From: Tetracentron sinense
Taxonomy: Eukaryota > Streptophyta > Magnoliopsida > Trochodendrales > Trochodendraceae
Length of the DNA stretch: 64,000 nt
Assembly (NCBI GenBank): GCA_015143295.1
Contig: CM026559.1
Location: 20,846,826 to 20,910,825, forward strand
Reading direction: 5' to 3'
Made by a program: the position numbers and the translations under genes. Within the stretch, counting starts at the first letter, position 1. Each line of letters begins with the position of its first letter. This document shows positions 24,043-59,779 of this stretch, one piece after another. The notes below the pieces were generated by a model. It saw only the letters and a program-made list of their open reading frames with translations. It was not told where the DNA came from and did no database searches.

Positions 24043-24277
24043 GCCGGTCGAACCTCCTCCAGTCGGTCGACTGCCTATTGCTGGTCGACCACCCATCCCA
24101 GCCGGTCTACCGATTGTCCCCAAAAATGGCCAAAATGAAGAAACAGTAGGGTTTTTGTTACAGCCGGTCGACCGCCCATCCCAGCCAGTTCACCGACCCT
24201 TAGTAATTTGGGGTTTTTCCCCTTGTACGTGAATTTTAAGGGTAGATTAGGGTTTTTAAAACCCTTGGCTTATAAAT
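24043..24277 (+). promoter_or_regulatory. LTR promoter module: palindrome cluster plus TATA box
   Basis: Repeated ccggtcgaccg-type near-palindromes (24043-24207) lie just upstream of TATAAATA (24270-24277). Downstream comes a gtgggtttagggttacaacaccctaa hairpin-like block. The same order occurs in the other Tekay-type LTRs of this window. Confidence 0.55.
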
Positions 24278-25324
24278 ACCCACCAAATTCGTGGGTTTAG
24301 GGTTACAACACCCTAAGGGGAGATTTTTAGAAACAAGTGAGAGAGTTAGGGTTTTGGAAGGGGTTTTAGCAAGAGATCAAAGGTGAAGCAAGGATTTCTC
24401 CATTTAAGCTTGGATCTCACTTCCACAAGCCTTCTCAAGTTCTTCCTCCTAAGTTTTTCAAGGTAGATACATTATACTAACTTTCCTTGTCATGATCCAT
24501 TAATATGTGTTCCTATTATTAGGTTCCTTTTTGTAAAAGTAAGATGTAAACCATGTTTGTAATGAAGTTAAGGTGTATAACTTAATATGTGTATACTAAT
24601 GAAATGAATGGAGTAAAACCAAGGTATAGGATCTTGTTTTTGTAATGTAAGCTTTGATGCATGTGTTTGAATACATGTAGGGCATATAGCCTAAGGCATA
24701 TAACCTTGTATGTGTATACAATTGAAAAGCATAAAATGAAATCGAGGTTTATGGCCTTGTATGTGTAGCTACTTGCTACTAGCTATCTATGATAGGATTC
24801 ATCTATGAAAAAACAAGATTTAAAGTATGTGTTGTGACATATAGAGTGTAGATACACTCTATCGTCTACCATGTTATGATTTCAAGTATTGGATCATAGT
24901 TTTTATGAAAAAGAGTAGATACTCTCTACCAGTTAGCTATGTTATGATGTTAAGGAAAGTGAAATAGAATGAATGGTTGTTGGATGAAATAGGCTAAGTA
25001 GCACATGTGTATACTATGATACCTCCATGAATAATGCTCCATAATATGTGTTGATGTTCTTACTTTATGATGATCACAATACTCTATGCATTGTATTCAA
25101 TGTTTAAAATGCTTTTTATGATATTATGATGCTCACACGTACTCTATGATACTCACAACCACTATGTACATGTATGAGGTAGGATCAAGATGTTTCATAA
25201 GACTCATAAGTAAAAGATTATAAGAAAAGGTTCATAAGCTTCATAAGTAAAAAGATCATAAGAAAAGTTTATAAGAAAGGAAATGCAAGCTCATAAGAAA
25301 AGAAGTCAAAAATATAAAGCATGA

Positions 25325-25607
25325 AAGGATGTTAGTGTACTATGACCAAGTACGGGCACTAACATTTGTTTCCAAGAATATGAGAGGACACTAGTATACT
25401 ATGACCAGGTACGGGTACTAGTGTCTATCTCCAAGTAAAAACGATGTAAGCATAGGAAGGATACTAGTGTACTATGACCAGGTATGGGCACTAGTATCTG
25501 TTTCTAACAAGTATTAAAGGATGTTAGTGTACTATGACCAGGTACGGGTACTAACATCTGTTTCCAAGTATATGAGAGGACACTAGTATACTATGACCAG
25601 GTACGGG
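25325..25607. repeat. LTR minisatellite, left part
   Basis: Imperfect tandem units of about 60-95 bp built around ggacactagtatactatgacc and aggtacgggtactagt. Four to five units here; the array resumes after the nested element at 28876. Confidence 0.8.
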
Positions 25608-28600
25608 TGAAACAAGGCTTTTCGGTCGTTGAAACGAATCACCCTATTTCAATACTTTAATTTAATCCGAATCCTGCATACATATGAAAATGGTATAGGG
25701 TGTGTGTCGGATGTCGAATCCTCACTCGGGGTTAGTTAGTTAGTGCAACAAAGAAAATAAAAATAATAAACTAAAGTAAAGATTAAAATGGTGGAGTGGT
25801 GAGAATGATGGAATAATGGGATTTTTTTAAAAACACTTTTGTTTGAGAAATTATTAAGGTCTACCACTATCCATGAAACAAGCATAAAACATAATTAAAC
25901 ACGAGTACTAACACGAGTTAACTACAAGAGAATCTGTAGCCTAGACAGACGTGTCGCACAATGGCAAGCTTAAGTACGTCCCAGACTAGCCGGATCAGTC
26001 AAGTAGTTTGACAAGTGTATTCCCGAAGAATAACTTGGGCTAGATTGTGTTCCTAAGTCAACAAGCACAGTTAACCAACAAGATTTTGAGGAGGCCAATT
26101 AAGAGCTTAGTATACGAAAGTAGTAGGGACCTGTGGGTATGTTAGGAAACAGGGACCCGCGCTCGTGGTCTTATTCAACTCAAAAATGAAGGATTCACTG
26201 ATTTTGTGATGGTCCTATGAACACTGAGCTAAATTTGGCTCTAAATCTTGGTTCATTTTATTAAATTGCTTTCGGGTTCACACAGTTGGAGTGATGAGGT
26301 GGGTGATGAAATCCCACCAGTTTCAAGTAGAGCTGGGTTTGCTCTTTTAATTAATGTATTTTTTGGCCATTCACACAGTTCGAAAAAGTTGTACAAAAGC
26401 AAATAAACAATCACCACCTAGATGCTCAGTCAACACCCGGGATCGCTTTCAAGCGAGGTATAGAACACGTACCTACCCGTGGGCTATGCCACGGGGTCGC
26501 CTCCGTGAGGTAGGGAGGGGTAATGGGCTTGGGCCCACTCCGAGCTAGTACTCCCTACTCACACTCCTTCCCTATGCACAAGTTAGTGCACAATAAAATA
26601 TAGGTCAAGTGATTGGGAATTATTTTTGGAAGGTGGTTGCCTTTAAGGGGTTGCACACAACATTCAGTTAATTAGGCAGATTAATTCATTTCCAAATTTG
26701 GGTTTTAATTCAAACTTAGTAGTTTTCTAAAGTAGGGAACTACTATTTCTAAATTTTCCCTCAAGTTTTGGAAACCTTCCAATTCAAATTGGTGAAATCA
26801 GGGCAAACTTCCCAAAATGGAATTGGGTTAAAGATAGACTTTTTCCACTACAAAGATTTAGAAATTTTTTGAAAATTAGAAATTTCTAAAAAAATATGCT
26901 AAATCTCTAAAAGATATGGGAAAATGCCTAAAATTAACAAAATTCTTATTTGAAAAGTCTCCAAAAGTAATAATTCCCAAAATACTAATCACCTAAAACA
27001 AAACAGAATGTAAATCAAAACCTAACACTTTTTTTTTTGCTGTTTTTTTTTTTTTTTTTTCGTGCTAGGGTTGCTAAGCCCTTGAACACATATCTAAAAA
27101 TAAAAATAAAAAATATAGAAAGTCCTAAATTATTACAAGTTGCACTCGGCCATCCGAGGCTTAAAAAAAATAAAAATAAAAATAACCAAGTAGAAAAGAA
27201 AGAGAAGAAGGGGATCCCAAATCCCTTGCTATATATATATATATATTTTTGTTTCCTGAAAATTTTCTTCTTTCTTTATGCACTTCCTTCACCCGACCGG
27301 CAACGGCGCCATTTGAAACAAGGTTTTTCGGTCGTTGAAACGAATCACCCTATTTCAATACTTTAATTTAATCCGAATCCTGCATACATATGAAAATGGT
27401 ATAGGGTGTGTGTCGGATGTCGAATCCTCACTCGGGGTTAGTTAGTTAGTGCAACAAAGAAAATAAAAATAATAAAATAAAGAAAAGATTAAAATGGTGG
27501 AGTGGAGAGAATGATGGAATAATGGGATTTTTTAAAAAACACTTTTGTTTGAGAAATTATTAAGGTCTACCACTATCCATGAAACATGCATAAAACATAA
27601 TTAAACATGAGAAAAAAAAAACTAACATTTATTTAGAATGATTCATTAAATTAAAAAGTACTTACAACACTTGAAGACAAAGAAATTGCAAGAACATTCG
27701 AAAGTAAAGCTGTAAAAATGATGAGATGAAGAGCTTTCTTCTTCACTTTCTTTCTTTTTCTCCTTCCTTTGCAAGAGTCACCAAAGATGAAGATATACCG
27801 AGAGATAGAGAGAAAACAAAAGATCCGTAGGTGAGAGAGAAGAGGTAAGATGATAGAGAATGGGGTAAGAGAGAGAAAAGGGGTTGAGAAATGAGAGAGA
27901 GATGAGAAGAGAAGTTAGGGGGGAAGGAACCATTTTTTAGAGGAAGAGATGGTGTAGGTTATATAGGATCATAGTTAGGGTTTGGAGAGAAAGAAGGTGT
28001 GATGAGATGGACGGCTAGGATTTCGTAAAGAAAAAGAGAAATTAGGGTTTCACTTTTGAAAAGTGAGTTGTTAGGATGGGAGAGAAATTAGGAAAATAAG
28101 TAAGAAATGGAAGGGGATTAGGGTTTTGAAAGAAAATGAGATGGGTGGCTAGGATTAGAGTTTGGTGATATGGGTGGCTAAGATTTACTAGAAGGTGGTG
28201 GGTAGGTTTAGGAAAAAGAGATGGGATTAGGGTTTTTAAACTAACTAGGGTTTTGAAAAGTAAGGATGGACGGCTAAGATGATAAAGGTTGACGAATAGG
28301 ATTAGGAGAGAGAGATTAGGGTTTTGAGAAATAAAAGAAAAAAAGAAGAGAAAATGATGGCAGGGGGTTTTGAACCCTGGTCTCTAACACAGACTCCCAT
28401 AGATTTCACCAACTAAGCAAGCTTTTCTCCTTTATCTTGTATAGTGATCTTTATTACTCAAGTCCTCTTTCTTGGAAATTGACTCTTCAGCTCCCTAGGC
28501 CTCATTATGTAATTGTGATCTCTTGGCTTAGCCCATACTTGGCCTGCATCTACTTGGTATAGCCTGTTGGCTCTTTAGTCTTCAGTAATGGGCTTTGATG

Positions 28601-28875
28601 CTTAACTACGGCCTCCAGTCCTTGAAAATCGTCTAGTTAGGGTTCCTAAGACAGTTAAAACACATAATGAGAGTTTATTGAAATGACTCAGTATCTAGAC
28701 TTTCAGAAATGTGTTTAAACTATGCAAATATACCATTTTTACCAGAAATGTGTGTGTTATGCAATGGAGGGAACTCTTACGTAGAAAAGTTTGTAAAAAT
28801 GTAACTTTTACGTAAAAGAGTGCGATAATGCTAAAAGGATAATTGTGAAAAACAAACACTTTTAAGCGAATATCA
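25608..28875 (-). mobile_element. Tat/Athila-type LTR element relic, nested
   Basis: Flanked by the 5-bp duplication ACGGG (25603-25607 and 28876-28880). On the minus strand, a 1562-bp 5' LTR (28875 to 27314) starts TGATATTC and ends CCTTGTTTCA, followed by a primer-binding site tggcgccgttgccggt (about 27311-27296), matching tRNA-Asp as used by Tat/Athila elements. Only a ~298-bp piece of the second LTR remains (25608-25905). The ~1.4-kb interior has no recognisable protein. LTR pieces are ~97% alike by eye, so insertion is fairly recent. Broken. Confidence 0.8.
27314..28875 (-). repeat. Complete LTR of the Tat/Athila-type relic
   Basis: 1562 bp with ends TG...CA on the minus strand. Its first 298 bases (in + order) are repeated at 25608-25905. 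Adjacent to the tRNA-Asp-type primer-binding site at 27296-27311. Confidence 0.75.
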
Positions 28876-29260
28876 ACGGGTACTAGTATCTGTTTTCAAG
28901 TAAAATAAAGAATATGAAAGGATACTTGTGTACTATGACCAGGTACAGGTACTAATATCTGTTTCCAAGATAAGTAAGAAATGATGTTTAGTATACTATG
29001 ATCAGGTATGGGCACTATCATCTATTTGCATTCAAGTAAGATCATAATAAACTCACAAGCAAGTTAACAAGAATATGAAAGGATGCTAGTGTATAATGAC
29101 CAGGTACAGGCACCAGTATCTGTTTCCAAGATAAGTAAGAAAAGATGTTAGTGTACTATGACTAGGTATGGGGACTATCATCTGTTTCCAAGTAAGTAAG
29201 AGAGGATGCTAGTATACTATAATCAGGTACTGGTACTAGCATCTGTCTCAAAGTAAGTAC
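28876..29260. repeat. LTR minisatellite, right part
   Basis: Continuation of the 25325-25607 array: about five more units with gtgtactatgaccaggtac and gcactatcatctgtttcca words. The nested element splits one array. Confidence 0.8.
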
Positions 29261-30150
29261 AAGATAAATTAAAAGAATGGTCTCATAAGCTAAGAATCCA
29301 ATAAGACATATAAGGAACCCACAATATTCATAAGATGTATAAGGAACTCACAATACTCGTAAGATATTTGAAATACATTTTATTAAAGTGTGAACTTAAA
29401 GTATGATTTTCGAGATTATGCATTTGTTATCTTAGTCTTAACTTTCGTACTCTGATTATTTATATATTATGATGAATTGTATCCTGTATGGCATATTAAT
29501 GTATTGTAACATGGTTAGTTAGTAGTATAAATATTTATACGCTGAGTATTAAATACTTAGTTGAACTATTATTTTGGTAGGTTCCAGGTTGGACGGTCGT
29601 GCTGCAGAGCCATAGGTCGAGGAGGTTCATGGAGAGCAGGAGCTTGCTTGGGATTATCATGCAGATGTTAGGGGCCTTAACATGTGACCTTATGGTTGAG
29701 TTGAGTGAGAGAGATATGTATTTTAGGATTTTGTTTTGGGGATTTTCATGTAGGCTTGAGTTGGTAACTCAAGTATTGGACCTTGTGTATATTTGTAGTT
29801 TTTAATAAGTCTTTTGTCAATGTTATCACTTAGAAGAACTTTTATATAGAAGAAATTTTCAGGTTCACTATTTGTTATGCCTTGTATACGCTTTGCAGGA
29901 TGGTTTGAAGTATAAGTCACGTTGCCAAAGTACCATAACTCCTAGGTGGTATTTTGGGGCGTTACAGATTAGATTATCTTTACACTCTCCAAGAGATGAT
30001 CTCTATCTCTAGCGTTTTGTACTAAATACAAACATACAGCTCCAAATCCCTAACGGATTCGAAACAGCAATGTACGAAAAGACTAATTGAGTCTAACATA
30101 CAATTAATCCCTATATCGAATAAGATTTTTTATGATGTTTATTGTTGTTA

Positions 30151-30166
30151 GCTCTGATACCAACTA
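30151..30166 (-). other. Primer-binding site of the gag-only element
   Basis: gctctgataccaacta reads TAGTTGGTATCAGAGC on the minus strand, the initiator-Met tRNA complement used by many plant LTR elements. It directly abuts the LTR starting at 30167, which fixes the element's orientation. Confidence 0.85.
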
Positions 30167-33100
30167 TGACGTCCCAAACCCGCACCTAAGGAATCATGTT
30201 CCGAGACGCATGCCTGTTTATCATTATCATGCAAACGGAAGACTTTGCCTGCGAAAATACAGTAATTTTCAACTTTTCTTATGAGCTTACATAAGCAATA
30301 ATAAATAATCATCACAATAACCCATCATAAGCAAATACGTTGCCTCATTGGCTACAATAGCCTTTACTTTTGGCTCCACAATTGTGCCGGTACACTTTCC
30401 TGACTCTATCAAGCGTAGCTCCTTGCCAATCCGCAACCACTTCAGAATATGAAGACATAAAATGAGGGGAGTGAGCTATAGAGCCCAAGAAAATCCAAAG
30501 TCCATCTAGACTATTTTTCACTTAATAACATTCATCAATAATGATATAGTAGTACAGTGAAAATCTCATATTATAATAATATCGTAACTTGTGACCCTAG
30601 GTCACTTAGGGCTATTTCACCCTATAAAAGGTTCCCAACTTCCAAGTGTTTTTCACCGTCTAGTTCATCCAATCATTGTCCTCAACATCAGGTTACCATG
30701 ATAGATACCCAATCATGCTCTATCCTTGAGTCCATAGACTCAATCGACTGGGCCTTCGCCCATGCACAACCTCTATCTTGAGTCCATAGACTCAATTATC
30801 CACAAATCAGGACTTCTCTTGTTTACGACCAATTCTTGGGTATGCTAACCCAATTAACCTTAAATCTTTATTTTCTATTACCCGGGCCTTCAACCAATAG
30901 TTGACAGGAATAGAACAACTCTTCTGACATATCACTTTATATTTTCCCACTGTGAGAAACACCAATACAGACAACCACATTTGTCAGGAACACATCTGAT
31001 CACCAGGATACACATCTGACCGCCTGGATACCCAACTGATAGCTAGGAAACCCATCCAACTTTTCAGGAAAATGAAACTCATCTAACAAGCTAGGGACGT
31101 ACCTCTCACTACCCGGATCATCAGAAAATCCATCCAACATACCAGGATACCACATTAGACATACCAAAGATGCACCTCTGACTACCAGGAAACACCTAAC
31201 TACTAGGAAACACCTGCCTACCAGGAAACATCTGACATATCACTTTGTCAGGCAAAACACCTCTGACATACTACTCTTGTCAGGAAACACATCTGACGTA
31301 TCAGGGTTCACACCTTTAACATGTCAGGAACACTCATCTGATTACCAGGAAGCACCTCTAACAATGTCCATGCCAAACAAAACACATCTGACAATATCCA
31401 TGCCAGGCAAAACACCTCTAACATCAAAACCTGTTAGGCATAACACCTTTGACATCAAATCTTGTCAGGTACCACACCTCTAACATCTCACTTAATCTAA
31501 CCTCTATTGGAATGTACTTGTCCCTGCAGAACATCATCCTTCAAGGAAACTATCCTGTAACATCACTACCTCTTTTGGGTGCATATCGACTGACAGAGGC
31601 CAATGCTCCCTCAAGGTAACATCATTGAGTTCGTAAACTCAATACATCACTAGGTCCGTGGACCACAATCCAAACTTGGGCCCATAAGCCCAATGTCATC
31701 CTAACTCTCCCGACTATCAGTCACGAAGGAACCCCGGCTCTTAGCAGACCCACCTTTTCAGACCTAGTCAAAGAGGAACCACAGATAGCATTTCACAGAG
31801 GTTAGGTTTTCTAAACGTAGGAAATCCCCAATTATTCAAGCCTTGCTTAAATAATTGAACCAGTTGGACCTCACGCCAGTGGACCAAGTCCGAGGTATAC
31901 TATTCCGGTGTGGAACATTACCCGGTCGATGAATCATTTCATCGCCTTACCATGTTCAAAAAATATCACATCACATAACACAATTGTTCCGATAAGGAAC
32001 ATATCAGGGCTGATGGGTCCGTCTATCTCCCTACAACATTCAAACAACATCCCAACACATAGGGATTCTCCGAGGTGCAACTTTACCAGGCTAATGGACC
32101 TACCATTGTCGTAGAAGTATTCAAAGATCATCACATCATACAAGGTGGTTCTGATAGGGAACATATCTGGGCCGATGAGTCCATCCATCATCCTACAAAC
32201 ACTCAAACACCATCACATCATACAAGGTTATTCTAATAGGGAACTTAACCAGGCCAATGGACCTACCATTGCCTTAAAACAAACATCACATAACATTCTT
32301 CATGCAAAGATGACTTCACAACACCTAGAGGGGCCGACATAGGCCCCTTGCAAAATCTGCATTAACTGTGATCGATCGTACCATCGATTACACCTACAAT
32401 CGATCGTACTTTGCCTATGATCAATCGTCCAGGGTCCTGATAGAACCCCAGGTGATCCATTTGTTTACGATTGATCATCTTGATTGATAGCACCATCGAT
32501 TTGTATGCCTACAATCGATCGCCACATGACTACGATTGATCGCAGATCACTCTGAGCCTAAATTTCGAGTTGTACACAGCTCGAAACAGAGGGCTACACC
32601 CCTCTGCTCTATTTCCACTCTTTCTCATCCCTTCCATACACAATCCACCGGTCCCCGACCCTTTTCATCCATGCCATACATTATCCACTCTAGTTCACAT
32701 ACAAAGTAGCTTAAATAAAGGGAAAAGAGAAGAGAGGGAGACGGATTTTACCTACTACATGGCTTTTGAGGCTCCGAATGTTGAAATGGTCATCGCCAAT
32801 GCGATCAGAACGCCAGAAAACCTCTAGGTGAACCACCTTTCTCTCTAACTTCCACTTTCTCTCTCTAGAATTCTCTATTTTTCTCTCTACTCGCTAATCA
32901 AGATGCTAGGAAGAAAAATAGATGTCGCCAACGCGTCGGCACGTCAAAAGACCCCAAGATGGACTCCCCTTTCTTTATCTCTCTCCTCTTTCTCTCTACA
33001 CTTTCTCTCTCTAGACTCAAATTGGGCAGAGTTTCGGCTCTTATCCGAATGAGAGAAAATGAGGGGCCTAGCCCCTCTTATATAGGCCAAAGTAGGGGTG

Positions 33101-33804
33101 AGGTGTCCCACTAGGTGATGTCATCGATGACATCATTGTGTGATGTCATTGATGACATCCCACATGTTGACTATTTGATCGGTTTTCTCAACTTTTCATG
33201 TATACGACCTGTGAAACCCACTAAACGACGCACAATGATGCCAAACTTAAGGTAACCGAACTTGGGGTAGTCAGTCACCCGTTATACAAATTTTGAGAAA
33301 AAATATTGAGTTTTGATAGTAAAAAGCAAGTTCAGAAGAAAACTGCAAAAGCCACTAATTTTCTGATTTTGGATGCAAAACACGCTGTCGTTTCTTTGTT
33401 TGAGATAATGACATCTAAAACGTCAAACAATCATTCGTACGATCTGTCAACACGCTATGGTGCAAATTTCACAGATTTCTATTGGAGCACTCGGTAAATA
33501 TTGAGTCCCGATTAAACTTTCGACAATCTATGAAATTCCTGGTTTTCTTGATTTTCTCACATACAAGGCCTCCACAGTCTCGCGAATCGATGCGCGACGG
33601 AACTGGTAGGAGAGGTGATCGTCCCGATAGCCGACCAGTACGTTGTGTGCAATTTCCAGAGAAAAACACTGAAGTTTTATTGGTACAATTCAGTCCCGAA
33701 CAAAAAACCACTTTCCACAAATTTATCAAACACTGAACTAATTAACCTCAGTTAAGGACCTGTAAACCCATAATTTTATTCTATTAAAATTCTAGGTCAT
33801 TACA
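30167..33804 (-). repeat. Right (5') LTR of the gag-only element
   Basis: 3638 bp; + strand begins tgacgtcccaaaccc and ends aggtcattaca. Contains a minisatellite of accaggaaacacct / ctctgacatatcagg units (30960-31490), a cluster of atcgatcg words (32366-32550) and a minus-strand TATA-like block at about 33085 (cttatataggcc). No protein is expected here. Confidence 0.75.
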
Positions 33805-35154
33805 AAGTAGAAGCTGGGATTTTTCGACGTCCCAGATGCATCCACAATGCCCCTGTCATCATCCGGAGACCTATCACACAAGTAGTGGGTAAAATCCATT
33901 CCCCTCTCTTCTATTTCCCTATTATTTAAGCTACATTTTATGTGGAATGGTTTGTATGCGATGGTATGTGAATAAAAAAGGGTCAAAGACCCAGAATGAT
34001 GTGAAGGGAATGGTTGGGTGATGGGGATGGATGGAAAGTGGGTAGAGGTGTGTAGACCTCAGTCTCAGTAAAATAGAGTTTTGATGAGATTTATGCTCTG
34101 CGACTGATCGTGCGATCAATTGTTATGTGATTTGTTGATTCGAATGGTTTGGAATGTCTTGGAATGGCGAGTTTGTGTGATGGATGGTTTGGATGGTGAA
34201 TCCATGCATGAAAAAAGGTTGTGAGACCCTGTGTAAGACCAAATATAGGTGAATATGGTGAAATGGGATGTGTGATTGTGTTTAAGGGTTGTGAGAACCC
34301 ATAAATGGGAAAAATGTGATGCATTGCTATTCAAATCTGTGTTTAGAGCAATGGAAAGGTCCATGAGCCCAATAAGGTTCCAAATCGGAATAATTTCATC
34401 TTGGACTTTGGCCCGTGAGGCACAAGGCCCAATTTTTGATGTCATATATTCCCTTTCATTTATTAAGGGCAATGGGAGGACCCATTGGCCCGGCTAGGTT
34501 CTAAATTGGAACAATTATATTGGCTAATGAGTCTATGGACTTCGAGGTGAAGGCCTCAGCGAGTAACAACCTGATTGGAGAATGAGTCAATGGACTCTGG
34601 GGCGATGGCCCCTATAGGTGAAGGCCTAGTGCTTTTTATGTTGCCTTGTGGGGTAGTGACCTTTGTATAGTAGGCATGTCCTGTGGGGATGATGACCTTT
34701 ATATAGTAGGTATGTCCCTATAGAGGTTTGCCTTGAGGGATGGTGATCAGCGGTGGTAGGTATGTCCCAATAGAAGTTGGATAAATGAATGTTGCCTTAA
34801 GGGGTGGTGATCTGCGGTAGAAGTTATGTCCCAATAGAGGTTGGATAAATGAATGTTGGCTTGACGGGTGATGACCTCTATACTTCGGTATGTTCCAATA
34901 ATAGCTTAAGTGGTAGGGATCTCTATGCTTTGGTATGTTACAACAAGACTTTAAAGGAGGTGTTTCCCAAGATAGGTTGAGGAATAAGGATCGTTGTACT
35001 TAGGTATGTCCCAAGACAGGTTGAGGAATTTGTATCATTGTAGTTAGGTATGTCCCAATAGAGCTTGGTTAAAGGTGCCGAATACCATAATAGGGTGATG
35101 ATCTTTGTACCTAGGTATGTCCTGTGGGGGCAGTGACCTTGTACTCAGGAATGC

Positions 35155-36836: not shown

Positions 36837-39047
36837 TGTCGCGACCCAAAACCCACCCTAGGAGTTAGAGTGAACTTTGGACGACTAATCATGACTTACA
36901 TGACTTACTTGACCAACCAACCTACAAAACCCACAGAGCATATACAATAGAGGATAAAAACAGCGGAAACATACTTTAACATGGTACAGCAAAAGTCTAC
37001 CAAACCTCTATGTATATACATACGTAAATCCAAGTTTATACAAGAAGGAAACCAAAAGAAAGTGCGGACATGCCCGCCAAAATACATGGATATATCTCTC
37101 TCAACTACCTACAGCTATATCACTCAGAATCTACAACCACCTAATGGTAAACCTCTACTGGAGGTTCCTCCAAAGGTTCCTCGACGTACTCCTCCTCCAC
37201 CCAAGGGCTCAGAGCACAGACATCGAATGGAGCAGCCGCTCCGCTATCACCTGCCGACATAAGAAGTACAGCTGAGCATGGAATACTCAGTGGGTACCAA
37301 ATACTAACCAATAGTTATAGCATAAAATGGCAATACATAAATCAGGAGCAATTCAAATATGTAAAACGGGAACAATTCATGTCATACAAGGAAGTAAAGC
37401 AATTTATAATCATGCTTACATTTCGTAAAAAGCCGATAAAACCTCTTGAAATCATGGTGTGCTTTGAAGGCTTTTCATGTTTGTCTTGCTTGATCTTGTC
37501 GAGCGTGTTGTACGTGTCATGCCATGCCATGCGTGTCATGCATGCTTGCTTGTGATCATGAAACTTGTGAGATACACTTGCGAGATGCACTTGAGAGCGA
37601 AGGGAGACCCTTCATTATGCAATGCACTTGAGAGGGAAGGGAGACCCTTCTTTATGAGATGCACTTGAGAGGGAAGGGAGACCCTTCTTTATGCATGCAC
37701 TTGTGAGTGAGGGGAGTCCCCTCGTGGAATGTTGGTTCTTGTTTCCTTGCGAAAAACGAGATAAAACATATCGTAGGATATGTTCCACCTCTAAACCTCG
37801 CTCTTGAAAGTACCGATAAACCATGTCATGCATGCCGTGCTCGTGGAATAGCGTGTATACTTGCATTGGAATTTAAATATGACATTTGGGGATTTCACAA
37901 TATATGGCAAATCACAATTTTAACAATAAGCATTTATGACATTATAAGGAAAACAAGGGCTCACACTATCATAAGCCCTACTAAGTTCATGAGTAATTAA
38001 GCATGCATTTTCTTAATCTATCCTTCGTTTTATTCACCTTGGCATTTCATCAAGCATAGGGTGTGTCCATTATTTATTTAAACCTAAATCATGCTTTTCT
38101 AGGTGGGTTATACTCACATCATACATGTTTGTTCATTATGGATACAATGCCCTCCCCATTTCATTCATCACATCATTTCAATCGGCATCCAATCGCCAAT
38201 AACCATCTCCATTCACACCATCCATACATCCCAAAATCATAGCACATTTAGAGATAATGGAAAACAAGGAATAGGGAAAGAAAAGGGAAGAAAATAAAGA
38301 ACTCTAACTAGGAGGGTAGCAAAAGGTACCGACCTTGACAAATGAGGGAAGGATCTCTCCTCCAAAACGTGCGTGTAGATGCTGCCCTAGCTTGAGGAGA
38401 GTGCTCCACGAGTGCTTGAACCGGAATCTTGAAGAAATCCAAGCTTGAGGTGATCTAGGGTTCACAAACCCTTTGATTTCTTCTCAAAAATCAAACCCTA
38501 GGTTAGGAAAACCCTTCTCTTCTCTCTTCCTCTCTAATATCCTCTAAGTGTGGTAAATGAGCCCTAAAGGCTCGAGCAATCCTATATAGGAAAGGGTTTA
38601 ACGCCCAAAAGATGAAAACGCCCTTAATGAAATTTCTGCAAAAACACGAAGACCGAGCGATCGGTGTTTATGACCGATCGATCGGTTGCCTACCGAGCGA
38701 TCGGTGAATTGACCGAGCTCTCGACCAAAAATCAACTCTCTGGAAAATTTCCCCATACAAATTTTTCGATCAGTCGATAGCTACCAATCGATCGGTTTTG
38801 GACCGATCGATCGCTCCATGGACCGAGCGATTGGTGCTCTGCAGGTCCAAACTGTTTTGGCCATATCTCTTGACTCGTTAGTCGGATTTTGATGATTCAA
38901 CTTGCGTTGGGTTTGTACTTCGATAAGGAACATTTCTGACATTTCAGAATTTCAAATTTCTTCCTTATTTATTAATTGTACTACTTTAAAGGTAAATTGG
39001 CTACAAAAGTGCCATGTATTAAGCATGAAAAAGTCTGGGTCTCTACA
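36837..39047 (-). mobile_element. Tekay-type solo LTR, 2211 bp
   Basis: Begins TGTCGCGACCCAAAA and ends TCTCTACA, flanked by the perfect duplication CTAGG (36832-36836 and 39048-39052). Same family as the LTRs at 50873 and 57900. Contains a cluster of accgagcgatcggt-type palindromes (38646-38835) and a minus-strand TATA-like cctatatagg (38580-38590). In the left part are three gcacttgagagggaagggagaccc units (37580-37720). Confidence 0.85.
38580..38835 (-). promoter_or_regulatory. Palindrome array and TATA box of a solo LTR
   Basis: At least seven gaccgagcgatcggt / accgatcgatcggt variants lie just upstream (minus strand) of a TATA-like sequence. Same layout as in the full-length element at 50.9-59.8 kb. 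Confidence 0.55.
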
Positions 39048-39957
39048 CTAGGTCCGTGACTGATAGTTGGGAGTGGGTTGAATAATATCCATTGATCCTC
39101 TTTAACTAGGTCTGTGACTGATAGTCTGGAGTGAGTTAAATGTTATCTATAGATCCTCTTTGACTAGGTCAGGAGTGGTGATGTTTGTTTAGTCCTCCGT
39201 GACTAATAGTTGGGAGTGAGTGGAATAATATCCATAGATCCTCTTTGACTAGGTCAAGAGTGCTGATGGTTGTTTAGTCTCCCATGACTGATAATCGGTT
39301 TCATTGGGTGTAGACCCGGTTGGTTAGTAATTGAGTTTATAGACTCAAGGGTAATTGTTGTACATGGGTGAAGGCCCAATCGACCGAGTCTGGGGACTCA
39401 GGGATAGAGCGTGAGCTATTTGGAATAGTAACCTGGTGTCGTGGACAAAGATTAGATGAATTTGACAATGGAACAACACTAAGGGGTTGAAGACCCTAGA
39501 TAGAGTGAAATAGCTCTGAGTGACCTCGGGTCACGATTTATGATACTATTTACTGCTTTATTATTCTGCATATTATTATAATATGAGAATTGAACTATAC
39601 CGCTATATCATTATTGATGTGTATTACTATGTGGAAAATAGTTTAGATAGATTGTGAATTTTGTTGGGCTTCATAGCTCACTGATGTTTCATGTCAGCAG
39701 ATTATGATGTTGCTGTCCAGTGAATAGAAGGTCCCGACAAATTGTTTGAGGCTTATAAAGACTACCGTAGCAAGTGAAGATAATGCATTTGTTTATGATG
39801 AGTTATTGTGATGACCAGTGTTATTGATTATGTGAGCTCATAAGAAAAATTTAAAATTTTTCGTAATTTTGGCGGGCAAAGTCTTCCGCTGCATGGTAAT
39901 GATGAGTGAGCACACGTCTTAGAACATAATTCCCTAATGCGTGGGTTCGATTCGTCA

Positions 39958-50002: not shown

Positions 50003-50017
50003 TACTATTCATAGGGA

Positions 50018-50425: not shown

Positions 50426-50432
50426 TTACTTA

Positions 50433-50833
50433 CTATATATATATATATATATACTAGTAATGTTGCACATGCTTTGCACATATATATATATATATATATT
50501 AATTAAGTTATAATAAATTAGTACATTTTATTAGGGGTGTATAGTAACTATAGGTAGCTAAGGACTTTCTAATAGAGTGCTTCTAACTCTACTAATAGAG
50601 AGTCCTCATTTAATTCAACACAATATAGAGTTCTTATCCATAAAACTAGCAAAATAAATATTTAATTGGTAGAGTGGGTCACATGGGTCCCACATAATAC
50701 TACCCATTATAATTATAGACTATATATTATAACTTTTTTTTTTTATAAATGGTGAAGGGTAAATATGTCCAAGTAAAGTTTTGCATGCTCCTTTTACTTT
50801 TATTAGTAGAATGATATATATATATATATATAT
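50433..50833. repeat. AT-rich spacer with (TA)n microsatellites
   Basis: TA runs at about 50434-50453, 50480-50500 and 50814-50834. Between the first two is atactagtaatgttgcacatgctttgcaca, a motif related to those at 11671 and 49275. Confidence 0.8.
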
Positions 50834-50872
50834 AGAAGTTATACGTAATATAATATATTTATTGAGTAGAGA

Positions 50873-52751
50873 TGTCGCGACCCAAAATACCCCCTAGGAG
50901 TTAAGGATACTTTGACTCGTGACCGCCGTATCATACCTCCAGTATGATACATAAGGCACACGTGGAAACCTGTCAGAGTACCTGAATATACATAGCGGAA
51001 ACGAAATACAATGCACAGCGGAAAATAAAATACTAAACATAGCGGAAGCAAAATGAATACTCCTATAACTTGGCTCAAGTAAGAACCAACAAGTATACAT
51101 GTGTGAGAAACCCAAAAGTGGAGTGGACAAACCCCACACTCACATAACAAAATGACACAAGTTCTAAGTCGGTCGATCAACAGAAATCGAAGTCACGACT
51201 CCTATCTAAAGCACCATCGTCATGATAGTGATCCATGGAAGGCTCCGGGTCATGGTACTCTTCCTCGACCCAAGGTTCTTCGCCACACAAATCGAATGGA
51301 ACCCGAGCACCTGCCGATCATAACAATATCGACTGAGCATGGAATACTCAGTGTATACAAACTAATAACAATAAAGCGGTTAGGCATGGAGCATACAAGA
51401 CATGGAGAATGAAATCCGTAAAATCCTTAAAGCATGGAAACCGTGAAAACATATGTGAGATAATATTCGAAACCAAAACTGTAACCGTGTGAGTCAATCG
51501 ATAATCATAGCCTTATGAGTTCTTGTGAGTTCATGGAGTTACTTAGAGTCATTATGATCCGTAGAGACATAGAGCATAGAGCAATAACCTTAGAGCATTT
51601 CCATAGAGCATAACCTTAGAGATCTTAGAGCATTTCATTGTGATCCGTGGAGCTTGTGAGACGATCTTAGAGCATTATCATAGAGTTTCCTTGTGAGCAT
51701 GGTATGATCCTTAGAGCTTGTGAAACGATCTTAGAGAAATCATAGAGTTACTTAGAATCATTCATTATTCTTCTTTTCGTGAAAAACCTTTATTTGTACT
51801 TTGAGAAATCCATGGAAACCATCGGTTTATGCGAGACATGCGAGCATATGCACTTAATAAGAGAAATCATCGTATTTAAGCATAGAATCCCTTAGAGGTT
51901 TTTTATCAAACACTTAGAGTACATCATAATAGTAACCTTCATCCAAGTATATAATCACACATTTTCATACATAAAGTTAGTACATATAGATAGGGCATAG
52001 ATAAGAAGAATCATATCTAGTAACTAGTAGGATTGCAAGATTGTAGTAGAGTGTATCTACCTTAGAGAAATCAATGAGTTTGACTCCCAATTGCTGGAAC
52101 AAGCAATAACCTTGTGTTCTTGGTTGAGAATCACCAAATGGAAAGGAAGAACTTGATCTTCCACAAGCTTGAACGATCACCAAGTCCTCTCCTCCTTCTC
52201 CTCTTCAAATCCCTCAAAAACAATGCACAAAGGGTTTGTGAAACCCTAAGGCACGAACCCAGCCCTTTTATAGGCAAAGGGTGATGGTTAAAGTCTTAAA
52301 CACCCTTAATGAAGAAAATCTGCGTATGACCGATCGATCGGTGGTATGGACCGAGCGATCGGTGGCTTACCGGTCGATCGGTGTTATGACCGAGAGATCG
52401 GTCAAAAACACACTCTCTGAAATTTTTCCCCATACAAAAAGTTAACCGTGCGACAGCTATCGAGCGATCGGTAGTTGACCGATCGATCGCAGGTAATGAC
52501 CGAGCGATCGGTCGACCCCTGTTTTGCTGAAAAACTTGTTTACACCACTCGAATATTCCCCAATGCACTTCCAACACTCTTTTATGCTTTCAACGCATTC
52601 CCTAAGGACATATAGACCCATTGGAACATATACGCCATAATTCCAAACACATATATTAACATAAGACTTATAAGTGTACAAAACCACACTTGGGCACTAT
52701 TCACACACTATTCATTCTTAGTGAAATGAAATGAAGTTTCGGGGCTCTACA
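50873..52751 (-). repeat. 3' LTR of the Tekay-type element
   Basis: Begins TGTCGCGACCC and ends GGGGCTCTACA. Contains the palindrome cluster at 52328-52512 and a TATA-like sequence at about 52264. Also carries repeated ttagagcat / catagagc words (51550-51770). Small open frames in it recur in the other LTR and are not genes. Confidence 0.93.
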
Positions 52752-52843
52752 TCCCTCCCCCCTTACAAGAATTTCGTCCTCGAAATTAGAACGATGCCAA
52801 AAACATGACAAGAACAAAATACACACAAAACTAACGAGGAAAA

Positions 52844-53135
52844 CTACTCAAACAAGTGAGGGTACTTTTCCTTCACTTCCGTTTCTCGCTCCCATGTAGC
52901 CTCTTCCTTGGAATGATGCTGCCACTTCACTAGGACTAAAGGGATAGTCTTGGTTCGCAACACTTGATCTCGACGATCCAGAATCTGAACTGGTTGTTCA
53001 ACCAACGTAAGATCCTCTCGAATCTCAACAGGATCAAGAGCGATGACGTGAGACGGATCCGAAATGTATTTTCTAAGCATAGAGACATGAAATACATTAT
53101 GGACCGCTGCCATGTGAGGCGGTAGTGCTACCCTT
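52844..53135 (-). pseudogene. Integrase C-terminal tail with chromodomain
   Basis: Minus-strand reading shows VFHVSMLRKYISDP followed by a chromodomain-like VLVKWQHHSKEEATWERE, the signature of plant chromovirus integrases. In the family this domain is thought to steer integration to particular chromatin. Confidence 0.85.
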
Positions 53136-56100
53136 TAAGCAACCTCACCAACTCTTGTGACGATCTCAAATGGTCCCACGTACCTAGGACTGAGCTTTCC
53201 CTTCTTCCCGAATCGCATGATTCCCCGACTCGGCGAAATCTTCACAAAGACCCGATCTCCAACTCGGAACTCTAAATCTCTGCGGCGTATATCCGCATAG
53301 CTCTTTTGCCTATCCTGAGCACTTTTCAATCGCTCCCGGATAATTTTGACCATTTCTGCGGTCCACTCTATCAACTCAGGACCAAGAATTTTCCTCTCAC
53401 CAACTTCATCCCAGTATAGCGGTGATCGACAACTCCGACCATACAGAGCTTCAAAAGGTGCCATCTGGATGCTTGCCTGATAGCTATTGTTGTAGGCAAA
53501 CTCAACCAACGGCAACTGTTCCTCCCAACTACCCCGAAAATCCAGCATACAAGCTCGGAGCATATCCTCCACTACTTGGTTCACCCTCTCCGTTTGTCCA
53601 TCGGTCTGAGGATGGAAGGCGGTACTGAATTTTAAACGAGAACCCATAGCATCCTGGAAAGTTTTCCAAAACCTGGAATTAAACCGAGGATCTCGATCAG
53701 ACACGATAGAAACTGGCACACCGTGCAGTCGAACCACCTCCTTAACATATAGGGCTACCAACTGATTTGCATTGAAAGTAGTTCGGTACGGAATAAAATG
53801 TGCAGACTTAGTCAACCTGTCCACAATCACCCAAATAGCATCGGAGCCCTTCGCCGTTCGCGGCAAACCCACAATGAAATCCATCGAGATGTTCTCCCAT
53901 TTCCACTCCGGAATAGGAAGGGACTGCAAAAGACCTGCCGGCCTTTGATGTTCGGCTTTTACCTGCTGGAAAATCAAACATCTGGCGATGTACTCAGCGA
54001 CTTCCCTCTTCATGTTTCGCCACCAGTAGTGCTTCTTGAGATTCGGGTACATCTTAGTACCTCCCGGATGTACCGTGTACTTTGATCGGTGAGCTTCATT
54101 CAAAATTTCATCCCTCAAAACTGTGTCGGCGGGGACACACAACCTGCCCTTAAATGTGATAGCACCATCATCATTTAAAGCGAACTCCTGACTGCCGTTA
54201 CTCGCTGACTTGTCTCGGTAAGCAAGCAACTTAACATCTGAATTCTGTAACTCTTTGATCTGGCTCAGGATCTGTGGCCTAACCACCACGTTGGACATTA
54301 TCGGCCCATAGGTGACATGCCTGAGAGTAGTGTCCAAATGACACATATCATGTAATAACTTCCTCTCTTGCACTCTCAATTGAGCCATAACTCTGTAAGG
54401 TTTTCTGCTAAGAGCATCGGCTACCACGTTAGCCTTACCCGGATGGTACTGGATGGAACAGTCGTAGTCCTTCATGAACTCCATCCAACGACGCTGCCTC
54501 ATATTCAACTCCTTCTGGAGGAAAAGATACTTCAAGCTCTTGTGGTCTGTGAACACCACGAACTCTTCTCCGTAGAGGTAGTGACGCCAAAGTTTCAGTG
54601 CAAAGATGACTGCAGCGAGCTCTAAGTCATGTGTGGGGTAATTCTGCTCATGCTCCTTCAGCTGACGGGAAGCATAGGCGACCACCTTTTTATGCTGCAT
54701 CAAAACACATCCAAGTCCCACTAGTGAAGCATCACTAAAAACTTCGAAACCACCGCTCCCAGATGGAACTGTAAGAACAAGAGCCGAAGTAAGCTTCTTT
54801 TTCAACTCCAAGAAACTAGCCTCGCACTTATCACTCCAAGTGAACCTCGTGTTCTTCCGTGTGAGATAGGTAAGCGGAGCTGCTAAACTTGAAAATCCTT
54901 CCACAAACCTTCTGTAATATCCTGCCAACCCGAGGAAACTACGAATCTCGGTGACACTCTTCGGTCTTTCCCAATTCATCACCGCTTCAATCTTTGCAGG
55001 ATCAACTGAAATACCTTCAGCAGATACCACGTGTCCAAGAAAAGACACCTTGTTCAGCCAGAACTCACACTTGCTCAACTTAGCATACAGACTATGCTCT
55101 CGAAGTGTCTGTAATACCAGACGGAGATCTCTCGTGTGATCCTCCTGTGATTGTGAATACACAAGGATATCATCTACGAACACGATCACACATTGATTGA
55201 GAGACGATCTGAACACCCGATTCATCAAATCCATGAATGCTGCCGGTGCGTTAGTCAGTCCAAAAGACATGACCAAAAACTCGTAATGACCGTATCGAGT
55301 TCGGAATGCTGTCTTCGGAATGTCCTCTTTCTTGATCTTCAACTGATGATAACCAGATCGAAGGTCAATCTTGGAGAAAAACTGTGCACCCTTCAATTGG
55401 TCAAACAAGTCGTCTATCCGAGGCAATGGATAACGATTCTTGATCGTGACCTTGTTCAATTGCCTGTAATCAATGCACATATGCATCGATCTGTCTTTCT
55501 TCTTCACGAAGAGAACCGGAGCTCCCCAAGGTGAAACACTTGGCCGGATAAAACCAAGGCCTTGCAATTCTTCTAACTGCTCTTTTAACTCCTTAAGCTC
55601 AATAGGGGCCATCCTATACGGAGCTCTTGAAATCGGAACTGTGCCTGGAGCTAGCTCAATCGCAAACTCGATTGCACGATCGGGAGGCAATCCCGGCAAG
55701 GTTTCTGGAAAAACATCTATATACTCACATACCACTGGAATGGGTGTGGAGTCTCGCACTTCTACACCCTCGAGACTAAGAGCTACAAAGCGGGCAATGT
55801 CTCTTCTCTGAAGTCTCCTGAAATGAAACGGCTTTAACCCCACGGGTTTAAAATGCACCACCTTCTCGAAACACGCCACGTGTCCATGGTGAGTTGAGAG
55901 CCAATCCATACCTAGGATGACATCGAAATCCCAATCCTGAAATCCCAGAAGGATCAAGTCGACTGGCAACTCGTGCTGCATGACTTGTACAACACTATCA
56001 GGATACACTTCATCTGTCTCAATGGATTTTCCCAGTGGAGTCAAAATGGACAACTCCCTAAGTAGCTTGCTTGGCTCGGACATAAAGCCTTTGGCAAAGC

Positions 56101-56170
56101 TTGGTGAAACGAACGAGTGAGTGGATCCTGTGTCTATCAACACTCTTGCCAAACATTCATTTACGAGCAA
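53135..56170 (-). CDS. pol region: protease, reverse transcriptase, RNase H, integrase
   Basis: A 1011-codon open region. In order on the minus strand: aspartic protease ([13 protein letters not shown], near residue 10), reverse transcriptase ([11 protein letters not shown] and FVDDILVYS, ~270-360), RNase H ([14 protein letters not shown], ~490), integrase zinc-binding region ([17 protein letters not shown]), and catalytic core (IVSDRDPRF, ~830). The domain order with integrase after RNase H places it in Ty3/gypsy. Part of the 50873-59779 element. Treated as a fossil element part. Confidence 0.95.
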
Positions 56171-56271
56171 CGAACCTGAGAATTTGAATCATCCCAGTTA
56201 TAACACAACTGTACATATAGATACAAACATCGCAAAACACCACATAGGATATATATATAGATACGAACAAA

Positions 56272-57585
56272 TCATGGCAATATTAGAACTTCGACAAAGA
56301 CTAGTTCGCGCGTACCTTGCACAACATCATCAGATGCCTGTGCGTCTCTATCAGTCATGGCAAAGACTCTGCCCTGGTTCGCCTGACGAGGCTGCTGGGT
56401 AGGCTGCAAGGATCTAGAGGCCTGAGATGAAGACCCCTGAAGTGAATTCTGCCTGCCTGGAGGCCGAACTCCCTGTGATCCAGACTGTGACTGCTTGCGC
56501 GGGCAATCTCGAATCATATGGCCCATCTCGCCACAGTGGAAGCATCCACCTGACATTCTTCGGAAATCTCCAGTCTTATGCCGACGACCACATACGGCGC
56601 ACTCCTCAAATGTCTACGATGCGGAGGAAGCCGGAGGCATAACCCTCGTAGCTTGCGATGCCGTAGGACGCGGTGCCTGAGGCGCAAAAGAAGGTCTCTG
56701 AGCCGACATCGGCTGGGAGAACTGGTACGGTGCAGTCCTAGTCCTTTTCTCTGAAGAACTACTCGACTGACCCCTAGACATGCTCTTCCCGAAGCCACTG
56801 TCTCTTCTTGTCACGAAGTCTTCCGCATTCTTTTCGGCGATCTTCGCCTTCCCTACTATCTCTCTCCAAGACTCTACCTGGAGGATGGACACCCGATCTC
56901 GGATGAAAGCCTTCAAGCCCATCTCAAACTTCCTGACCTGTAGGTCTTCAGTAGCCACCAAGTGCGGAGCAAACCTAGACAACTCAGTGAACTTAGCCTC
57001 ATACTCGGCTACGCTCATCGACCCTTGCTCCAAAAGCATAAACTCTCTCGCCTTTTGTTCCCGAATAAACCTGGGAAAGTACTATTCCCTGAAAGTCTCT
57101 AAGAACTCCGCCCAAGTCTAGGGCACACCTGCCTTAGCAACATCTCTCTGCCTTTGGGCAGCTCTCCACCAGTGTTCGGCTTCACCCTCCATCACGAAGG
57201 AAGCCCATTCTACCCTTTGCTCATCGGTACAACGGAGAGCCCGGAAGGTCTTCTCCAACTGCATAATCCAAGACTCGGCCACCATGGGGTCCAGAGTGCC
57301 ATAGAATGTAGGAGGCCGCAGTCTCCTAAAAGCTTCGAGCCCCGCGGTGTGATGCACCGGTGTAGGCACAGGCGTGGACGGTGGGGTAGGCATAGGCCTC
57401 GCTGCCAACAATGCCAAAGTATCGGCTATGGAGTCCATAGCATTTGTGAAATACAACGGTTCCTCTTCTCTCGGAACTTCACTCTCGGCCCTCCGAGTAT
57501 GGTAACCACGACCCCGATTGCCACGTCTCATGATATCGAATCCTGAGATCAATTTGGCAAAACATGAGTCTAACTTGGATACCAA
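56272..57585 (-). pseudogene. gag region of the Tekay-type element
   Basis: Minus-strand parts: an Arg/Gly-rich N-terminus (MRRGNRGRG), a capsid region with AEHWW and LEQGSMSVAEYEAKF, and a zinc knuckle CFHCGEMGHMIRDCP. These are the usual chromovirus gag parts, lying between the primer-binding site and pol. Confidence 0.85.
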
Positions 57586-57899
57586 ACCTCACATATCATA
57601 TAGCAATTCAATAATCATGAAATGCTATACCGCACATAGTATACATCGAGGTATATATATATCATCATATAATTATACTTTAGAGCCTATACCAGAACCT
57701 CGCATAGGATCACATCGATCTTGGATCCCATACTGACCTAAGGATTCACTTGATACCGGTTATGTCGTGGTAACAAGCCTAAGACAACTGAGTCCTTCTG
57801 AGTTCTAAGTTCAACTCATAGGAATTACTTCCGCTTAGACCAAGCCTGAGTGACCTAACTAAGTCTGTCATTAGACATAACTAGCTCTGATACCAAGTC

Positions 57900-59779
57900 T
57901 GTCGCGACCCAAAATACCCCCTAGGAGTTAAGGATACTTTGACTCGTGACCGCCGTATCATACCTCCAGTATGATACATAAGGCACACGTGGAAACCTGT
58001 CAGAGTACCTGAATATACATAGCGGAAACGAAATACAATGCACAGCGGAAAATAAAATACTAAACATAGCGGAAGCAAAATGAATACTCCTATAACTTGG
58101 CTCAAGTAAGAACCAACAAGTATACATTTGTGAGAAACCCAAAAGTGGAGTGGACAAACCCCACACTCACATAACAAAATGCAACAAGTTCTAAGTCGGT
58201 CGATCAACAGAAATCGAAGTCACGACTCCTATCTAAAGCACCATCGTCATGATAGTGATCCATGGAAGGCTCCGGGTCACGGTACTCTTCCTCGACCCAA
58301 GGTTCTTCGCCACACAAATCGAATGGAACCCGAGCACCTGCCGATCATAACAATATCGACTGAGCATGGAATACTCAGTGTATACAAACTAATAACAATA
58401 AAGCGGTTAGGCATGGAGCATACAAGACATGGAGAATGAAATCCGTAAAATCCTTAAAGCATGGAAACCGTGAAAACATATGTGAGATAATATTCGAAAC
58501 CAAAACTGTAACCGTGTGAGTCAATCGATAATCATAGCCTTATGAGTTCTTGTGAGTTCATGGAGTTACTTAGAGTCATTATTATCCGTAGAGACATAGA
58601 GCATAGAGCAATAACCTTAGAACATTTCCATAGAGCATAACCTTAGAGATCTTAGAGCATTTCATTGTGATCCGTGGAGCTTGTGAGACGATCTTAGAGC
58701 ATTATCATAGAGTTTCCTTGTGAGCATGGTATGATCCTTAGAGCTTGTGAAACGATCTTAGAGAAATCATAGAGTTACTTAGAATCATTCATTATTCGTC
58801 TTTTCGTGAAAAACCTTTATTTGTACTTTGAGAAATCCATGGAAACCATCGGTTTATGCGAGACATGCGAGCATATGCACTTAATAAGAGAAATCATCAT
58901 ATTTAAGCATAGAATCCCTTAGAGGTATTTTATCAAACACTTAGAGTACATCATAATAGTAACCTTCATCCAAGTATATAATCACACATTTTCATACATA
59001 AAGTTAGTACATATAGATAGGGCATAGATAAGAAGAATCATATCTAGTAACTAGTAGGATTGCAAGATTGTAGTAGAGTGTATCTACCTTAGAGAAATCA
59101 ATGAGTTTGACTCCCAATTGCTGGAACAAGCAATAACCTTGTGTTCTTGGTTGAGAATCACCAAATGGAAAGGAAGAACTTGATCTTCCACAATCTTGAA
59201 CGATCACCAAGTCCTCTCCTCCTTCTCCTCTTCAAATCCCTCAAAAATAATGCACAAAGGGTTTGTGAAACCCTAAGGCACGAACCCAACCCTTTTATAG
59301 GCAAAGGGTGATGGTTAAAGTCTTAAACACCCTTAATGAAGAAAATCTGCGTATGACCGATCGATCGGTGGTATGGACCGAGCGATCGGTGGCTTACCGG
59401 TCGATCGGTGTTATGACCGAGAGATCGGTCAAAAACACACTCTCTGGAATTTTTCCCCATACAAAAAAGTTAACCGTGCGACAGCTATCGAGCGATCGGT
59501 AGTTGACCGATCGATCGCAGGTAATGACCGAGCGATCGGTCGACCCCTGTTTTGCTGAAAAACTTGTTTACACCACTCGAATCTTTCCCAATGCACTTCC
59601 AACACTCTTTTATGCTTTCAACACATTCCCTAAGGACATATAGACCCATTGGAACATATACACCATAATTCCAAACACATATATTAACATAAGACTTATA
59701 AGTGTACAAAACCATACTTGGGCACTATTCACACACTATTCATTCTTAGTGAAATGAAATGAAATTTCGGGGCTCTACA
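57900..59779 (-). repeat. 5' LTR of the Tekay-type element
   Basis: 1880 bp, ~99% like 50873-52751 by eye. Its inner edge abuts the primer-binding site (agctctgataccaa, 57885-57898), which defines it as the 5' LTR on the minus strand. Confidence 0.93.
59290..59545 (-). promoter_or_regulatory. 5' LTR promoter module: palindrome array and TATA box
   Basis: Seven or so variants of accgatcgatcggt / gaccgagcgatcggt (59355-59542) lie directly upstream, on the minus strand, of CTATAAAA (about 59300-59293). A gggtttcacaaaccc-type hairpin follows around the likely transcript start (59258-59275). Role inferred from position only. Confidence 0.6.

Follow-up and report, generated by a model that had tools for sequence, protein, structure and literature searches.

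Two-turn palindrome arrays upstream of the TATA box in retrotransposon LTRs of Tetracentron sinense: a predicted regulatory module in Ty3 chromoviruses and Ty1/copia elements

What keeps clusters of CG-rich near-palindromes in place just upstream of the TATA box in the long terminal repeats (LTRs) of unrelated retrotransposons? The question is raised by a stretch of 64,000 nucleotides of the Tetracentron sinense genome (assembly GCA_015143295.1, contig CM026559.1, C9:20846826-20910825), hereafter the window, which contains such clusters in several LTRs, among them both LTRs of a Ty3 chromovirus insertion. An original prediction, made from the letters of the window, had read them as a sign of selection for a protein-binding array or a structural signal in U3. 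We analysed the window together with the whole genome, the genome-wide counts covering 1.161 Gb. The feature is real, non-random and was sensibly read. We consider it probable, from the sequence comparisons below, that the arrays form a cis-regulatory module of the LTR promoter, and we predict that this module is a DNA-level enhancer bound by a dimeric host factor.

Palindrome arrays in the window

The five clusters of the original prediction are all present where it had placed them. The arrays, and the parts of the elements that carry them, are the following.

57900-59779, minus strand: 5' LTR of the Ty3 chromovirus insertion, starting with TGTAGAG and ending with CGCGACA
59355-59542, minus strand: palindrome array of the 5' LTR, about 240-425 base pairs (bp) from the LTR start
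59440-59462, minus strand: core GTATGGGGAAAAATTCCAGAGAG between the two sub-arrays of the 5' LTR
59294-59299, minus strand: TATAAA of the 5' LTR, 56 bp past the last unit
57884-57896, minus strand: primer-binding region TTGGTATCAGAGC, just inside the 5' LTR
within 56617-57081, minus strand: gag (Pfam search)
53135-56188, minus strand: pol with protease, reverse transcriptase, RNase H and integrase (Pfam RVP_2, RVT_1 6.1e-35, RT_RNaseH, Integrase_H2C2, rve)
within 52847-53134, minus strand: chromodomain
50873-52751, minus strand: 3' LTR of the insertion, 98.9% identical to 57900-59779
52328-52512, minus strand: palindrome array of the 3' LTR
52413-52435, minus strand: core of the 3' LTR, CCAGAGAG with one base changed
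38646-38835, minus strand: palindrome array in a related LTR of the window Ty3 family, homologous, over about 37192-39055, to LTR loci retrieved from the genome
38736-38758, minus strand: core of this LTR, with TATATA at about 38583-38588, 63 bp past the last unit
61612-61746, plus strand: palindrome array with the words CCGGTTGACCG and CCGGTTAACCG, with homologous loci L040 and L063
61677-61699, plus strand: core GTATGGTAAATATTTCCAAAGAG of this array, with TATATA at 61824-61829, 78 bp past the last unit
24043-24207, plus strand: palindrome array of the GGTCGACC type in a separate repeat family, without the CCAGAGAG core, with TATAAA at 24271-24276, 73 bp past the last unit

Considering that the arrays at 52328 and 59355 belong to the 3' and 5' LTR of one insertion, the five clusters represent only four independent insertions. 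On the sense strand, the distance from the last unit to a TATA-like word is 56-78 bp in five of five arrays (56 bp also for the array at 52328), and the predicted position upstream of the TATA box is confirmed in the window.

Using a definition of a cluster as at least three 14-mers within 110 bp, each with at most one mismatched pair, and a strict limit on AT content (at most 0.6), we found four clusters in the window, at 24066, 38658, 52335 and 59362, all of them at the predicted sites, against one cluster in total in 20 Markov shuffles. The site at 61612 presents two words only at this setting. When AT content up to 0.75 was allowed, four window clusters stood against 7 in 20 shuffles, and with no AT filter 11 were obtained, 7 of them away from the predicted sites, against 14 in 20 shuffles. 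The comparison of the AT filters with the shuffles shows, therefore, that it is CG-rich words in particular that cluster at these sites.

The insertion is bordered by a target-site duplication, TCTCT, recognised by eye, and exhibits the domain order protease-reverse transcriptase-RNase H-integrase together with a chromodomain, so that the element belongs to the Ty3 chromoviruses. Its LTR of about 1880 bp is inside the Del range of 1143-4831 bp given in the portion of PMC4029996 used here, and ends in GGGTCGCGACA, where GGG lies, by our own count, one position beyond the -8 to -10 of the U5 attachment site type. The label of Tekay-type LTRs in the original prediction holds at the level of a Ty3 chromovirus, on the evidence of the domains, while membership in the Tekay/Del lineage itself is likely, judging from the chromodomain and the LTR length.

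The repeat at 24043 is likely an LTR as well, according to its TATA word and its array. In its dispersed family (the window copy and eight others) the copies present 0-3 CG-rich dyads each, none being found in L136, and the size of the array varies. An inverted copy of this repeat (window 24000-24600), 99% identical, is located about 80 kb away at C9:20950983-20951583 and is perhaps a recent duplication.

Abundance, spacing and constraint of the units

The words of the arrays were counted genome-wide. The perfect 14-mer ACCGATCGATCGGT occurs at 30,033 places against 3 for its reversed control, CCGGTCGACCGG at 851 against 25 for the control, and the core class, with up to 2 mismatches, at 22,113 against 8 for the reversed control. 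No expansion is seen genome-wide for the pure TTAA word ACCGGTTAACCGGT, found at 3 places against 11 for the control, and a single fixed word was rejected as an explanation since ACCGGTTAACCGGT is rarer than its control. The original prediction had named clusters equally common outside LTRs as a result that would speak against it, and the answer obtained is a partial one: among the first 50 listed copies of ACCGATCGATCGGT, which were judged by the neighbouring unit, another listed unit lies no more than 250 bp away in 45. The other five comprise three decayed arrays in which the layout is kept, one cluster whose context was not recognised and one loose pair. At L128 (C1:9169290-9169790), the perfect 14-mer and words related to it form a cluster in a context not recognisably that of one of these LTRs.

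On the sense strand, units come first, then the core (TTTTGTATGGGGAAATTTTCCAGAGAG type), then further units and TATA. We scored 64 core-anchored segments for unit spacing, unit number and TATA. The start-to-start steps between units were 19 bp (107), 20 bp (46) and 21 bp (100), and the commonest step over the core was 71 bp (42). Six or seven units, at up to 2 mismatches, were present in 50 of the 64 arrays, and one array had 9. Neighbouring units are 19-22 bp apart, which corresponds to two helical turns.

Pairs of units were also searched across the genome, the listed pairs being the first places of much longer lists. Pairs of CCGGTCGACCG were found at 584 strand-wise places against 0 for the control; with 16-31 bp allowed, 92 of the 93 distinct pairs among 100 listed rows are at 18-22 bp, and those typed from the listed rows include 60 distinct spacers. 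In family 1, 66 of 94 distinct listed pairs are at 19-21 bp, 26 are at 38-40 bp, i.e. two steps, and 2 are elsewhere. The third word, AGGGTCGACCCT, gave 184 pairs against 0 for the control, 49 of 50 distinct listed pairs being at 20 bp by eye.

We scored 98 modules, picked by matching against chosen unit words; related copies, as well as the two LTRs of single insertions, are among them. The first dyad centre downstream of the core lies 17 bp past its end in 85 of these, and in 8 of the remaining 13 it lies at 36-38 bp, one step further. As the unit matching was adopted after a word-free scan with mixed results, this count rests on the chosen word set, and an open-gap search was used as a check. 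The search for CCAGAGAG-N0-30-CCGGTCGACCG gave 142 places genome-wide against 0 for the control, and 79 of the 100 listed have a gap of 11, which puts the centre at 17, with 14 at a gap of 10 and 7 at others. This offset is preserved across families with different words.

We compared 12 LTR pairs (14 candidates minus L097/098, L099/100 and L101/102, whose identity is 0.87 or lower, plus the window pair) in order to set the divergence between elements against the decay within a pair. Within pairs, the differences amount to 3.4% in units (41/1215), 2.1% between units (18/865) and 3.0% in flanks (120/4019). Between elements (66 comparisons of the 12), they amount to 13.0, 18.3 and 32.7%, respectively. 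The between/within ratio is 3.84 for units, 8.78 between units and 10.96 for flanks, and the unit/flank ratio is 0.36 (bootstrap 0.22-0.63). The change after insertion proceeds in the units at an ordinary rate (units against flanks, p 0.51). Therefore, the low divergence between elements, relative to the decay within pairs, shows that the units are kept in replicating lineages, with no overall protection after insertion. At CpG positions, units differ within pairs about half as often as flanks (24/476 against 32/292, Fisher p 0.004), which may reflect a lower methylation of the arrays or a bias toward recognisable units. Concerted change inside the arrays could also contribute to the likeness of the units.

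Carriers in two superfamilies and neighbouring features

A 411-base piece of locus L068 gave 60 matches in the genome, several of them paired 7-16 kb apart. The interior of such a pair on C12 contains a copia reverse transcriptase (RVT_2 6.5e-48), gag_pre-integrs and Pol_BBD, and the L068 type is placed as Ty1/copia by this paired relative. The junction of the type reads in L130 CA/ATTGG followed by TATTAGAGC, one change from TATCAGAGC. The L132 locus (C7) presents the junction CA/ATTGG with the exact TATCAGAGC, and L081, which adjoins the L076 array, presents a copia gag and the exact junction of CA/ATTGG and TATCAGAGC.

The L068-type LTRs contain about 2-5 units, then a 47-bp core segment with the anchor in the same place, then 1-2 further units. 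Outside the anchor, the mean identity of 11 cores of this type is 19.2 of 39 positions to L070 and 21.8 of 39 to the family-1 locus L008. Shuffles gave 12.5 and 12.7, respectively, and 8 and 0 of the 5000 reached the observed values. As the copia copies are related, this is effectively one comparison. It covers 11 of the 16 L068-type pieces. The five left out, L113, L116, L117, L118 and L120, keep the layout by inspection; in four of these the anchor shows a single change. When L070 was aligned locally with five copia pieces, all alignments were within 277-443 of L070, which is the module, except one 11-base match (E 0.56). L070 is provisionally taken as Ty3-like, only by its similarity to family-1 LTR loci, the Ty3 protein evidence being that of the window element. 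Proteins tried from L077, L078 and L080 could not be assigned to a family.

From these comparisons, it seems more likely that the cassette common to Ty3 chromoviruses and to Ty1/copia elements with the Sirevirus junction was acquired through U3 exchange than that it originated independently, convergence on one factor being possible in place of exchange. The most specific form of this proposal is that one cassette, made of the two-turn arrays and the CCAGAGAG core, was passed between Sirevirus-type copia and Ty3 chromoviruses and would serve as a shared handle on one host transcription factor, the words GATCGATC, GGTCGACC and AGGGTCGACCCT having changed symmetrically while the geometry stayed fixed. 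We put it forward tentatively, as a serious candidate that falls somewhat short of probable.

L071/L079 was tried as a further Ty3 carrier on account of a nearby protease, reverse transcriptase and integrase; its LTR reads as a solo LTR with a copia-like R-U5, and it was not counted as Ty3. L071 itself (C1:33808650-33809250) carries AGGGTCGACCCT together with CCGGTCGACCGA units in this LTR. By eye, the arrays of the family-1 and L070 LTRs are preceded, at a distance of about 60 bp, by a conserved block, CAACGCAAGTTGAATC...TCAAAATCCGACGA...GAGTCAAAAG.TATGGCC; it was not seen in the five copia pieces compared with L070.

Elsewhere in the window, an open reading frame of 475 codons at 3683-5107 encodes a protein kinase domain (PK_Tyr_Ser-Thr 6.8e-49) and is an apparent host gene beside the repeats. 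A tandem array at 15114-19195 consists of a repeat of about 172 bp, with about 20 copies in register, and corresponds to a satellite of near-nucleosomal length. Two long repeated blocks, at 19266-22192 and 30575-33805, are about 80% alike and 11 kb apart, and are perhaps the LTRs of an older element. In the cluster scan of the window no CG-rich palindrome cluster was found in these blocks, and one AT-rich cluster, at 19567-19669, was seen only without the AT filter.

The proposed module, its alternatives and known systems

Strictly spaced palindromes that are common to two superfamilies point to a DNA-bound regulatory array and not to chance. In the module that we propose, each 14-bp unit (ACCG-R-T-Y | R-A-Y-CGGT) is a predicted site for a symmetric dimeric host protein. 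Successive dimers would lie on one face of the DNA and a second factor would sit on the core, at a fixed distance, so that the factors on array and core could together bring the transcription machinery to the TATA box. Selection would act on the DNA word and on the spacing, which is why the letters of the spacers would be free to drift. The reading in terms of selection draws support from the word counts, from a spacing that is maintained with varied spacers, from the 17-bp core offset and from the low divergence of units between elements. As to the choice between a protein-binding array and a structural signal, which the original prediction had left undecided, the DNA array fits better: the balance of G.U and A.C changes, in which G.U changes are not favoured overall, and the two-turn register both favour the recognition of double-stranded DNA.

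Several observations weigh against this module, in addition to the way in which the 98 modules were picked. The unit/inter-unit ratio of 0.42 has a bootstrap interval (0.22-1.06) that includes 1, as do those of the unit against flank comparison when it is limited to CpG positions (0.29-1.49) or to non-CpG positions (0.27-1.16). In the word-free dyad scan of 107 cores, which is messy because overlapping frames compete, 56 cores have no downstream dyad of 5/6 pairs and only 19 of the 51 that have one show the 17 bp. A TATA-like word was found by script in only 30 of the 64 core-anchored segments, at 44-103 bp, and both the 24043 family and the copia locus L076 are without the CCAGAGAG core. The asymmetric word ACCGATCGCTCGGT is frequent (110 of 390 units) and the word types GATCGATC, GGTCGACC and AGGGTCGACCCT differ, so that one factor would need to tolerate variation. 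Finally, at pair 5/10 the G.U-type cells outnumber the A.C-type cells, 30 against 14, as would be expected of an RNA hairpin.

Among the alternatives, a role of CpG density itself is unlikely. The dense CpG block would either escape methylation or, once methylated, recruit a reader, and the palindromes would be its by-product. The observed/expected CpG ratio is indeed 0.88-1.76 in the five arrays compared to 0.59 for the window, the CpG differences within pairs are halved in units (p 0.004), as if these were less methylated, and CpG islands upstream of the TATA box are described for Sireviruses and for monocot Del LTRs in the portions of PMC2829016 and PMC4029996 cited. However, density requires neither dyad symmetry nor a 20-bp spacing nor a fixed core offset, and many other 200-bp stretches of the window, some of them coding, have at least 10 CpG without a CG-rich palindrome cluster.

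It is also improbable that the units act as RNA hairpins. They would then fold in the transcript, the genomic RNA having U3 at its 3' end, and would either serve in packaging, in dimerisation or in a function of that end, or give rise to small RNAs. Sense folding beats dinucleotide shuffles in the five arrays (z -2.0, -6.3, -4.5, -4.0 and -2.4), and small RNAs on maize Sirevirus palindromes are cited in a paper of 2023 (PMC10760457). However, the antisense strand folds about equally well in three of the five arrays (z -1.4, -4.9, -5.5, -6.6 and -0.9), as palindromes must fold on both strands. Pair 5/10 apart, the G.U type is the rarer one: over the outer five pairs, G.U against A.C changes number 15 against 22 distinct words and 59 against 76 copies, and at pairs 2-4 the cells are 26 against 58. 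It is not obvious what an RNA would gain from a register of 20-21 bp or from the 17-bp offset, and targeting by small RNAs would be a cost to the element and gives no reason for keeping the units. A conserved RNA hairpin is not supported.

There remains a neutral minisatellite, in which slippage or template switching multiplied a 20-bp palindromic unit that then spread with the successful families: copies differ by the gain or loss of entire units and spacers are alike within one family (both by eye), and concerted change could keep units alike, but we doubt this reading, given that the units are the least divergent part between elements despite their flank-like change after insertion (41/1215 against 120/4019), that spacers are unrelated between families while words and spacing are kept, that the offset to a core which is not repeated is kept, and that the arrays are common to two superfamilies.

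The DNA-bound array is closest to the RM boxes of Bousios et al. 2010 (PMC2829016), which are palindromes with a CGG-CCG signature upstream of the TATA box in Sirevirus LTRs. Its authors were unable to name a common binding factor, and they call the motif specific to Sireviruses among the Ty1/copia elements compared. RM boxes resemble the window palindromes, which occupy the upper half of the LTR in multiple copies, in a CpG-rich block closely before TATA. The published Vitis box, CGGTCGACCG, is contained in the GGTCGACC-type unit, and the junction published for Sireviruses, CA/ATTGG/TATCAGAGC, is that of the copia carriers here. In contrast, the window carrier is a Ty3 element with a chromodomain, so that the form is RM-like and the host is not Ty1/copia. 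The main word of the window, ACCGATCGATCGGT, has CCG...CGG in place of the CGG-CCG signature given in the same source, the GGTCGACC-type families containing CGG...CCG. RM boxes are defined there by at least 8 copies per element, and window-type arrays have mostly 6-7 units per LTR, with two LTRs per element. The two-turn spacing, the CCAGAGAG core and the core offset are not mentioned for RM boxes in those sections of PMC2829016.

A second known system is that of the CpG islands in Del/Tekay LTRs (Cruz et al. 2014, PMC4029996), reported, in the part of the article used, to be absent from the eudicot elements of that study and to lie in a poorly conserved region. The window arrays share with these islands a CpG-rich block of variable length in the 5' part of long LTRs, in the same presumed lineage. 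A word search of the main text of that article for 'palindrom' and 'dyad' gave no match. Work of 2016, as cited in the part of PMC10760457 considered, likewise treats LTR palindrome clusters as a cis-regulatory region under opposing pressures; it concerns copia elements, unlike the window carrier, and its stress is on RNA structure and small RNAs. Such arrays are not mentioned in the excerpts used of PMC3414828, PMC11963269, PMC5738225 and PMC8282616, and in the open-licence literature we found no report of arrays in Ty3 chromovirus LTRs, of a two-turn register with a fixed core or of their sharing across superfamilies.

The arrays, therefore, are of a known kind, palindromic regulatory boxes of LTRs, while their lineage, geometry and breadth look new. 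RM-like boxes in a Ty3 element, at very high copy and with fixed spacing and core, narrow the question to a DNA-binding dimer of defined geometry, for which the exact words and offsets are now available as test material. Exchange of the cassette would mean that promoters are shared by unrelated retrotransposons, and this would bear on silencing by the host and on the rewiring of nearby genes by LTRs.

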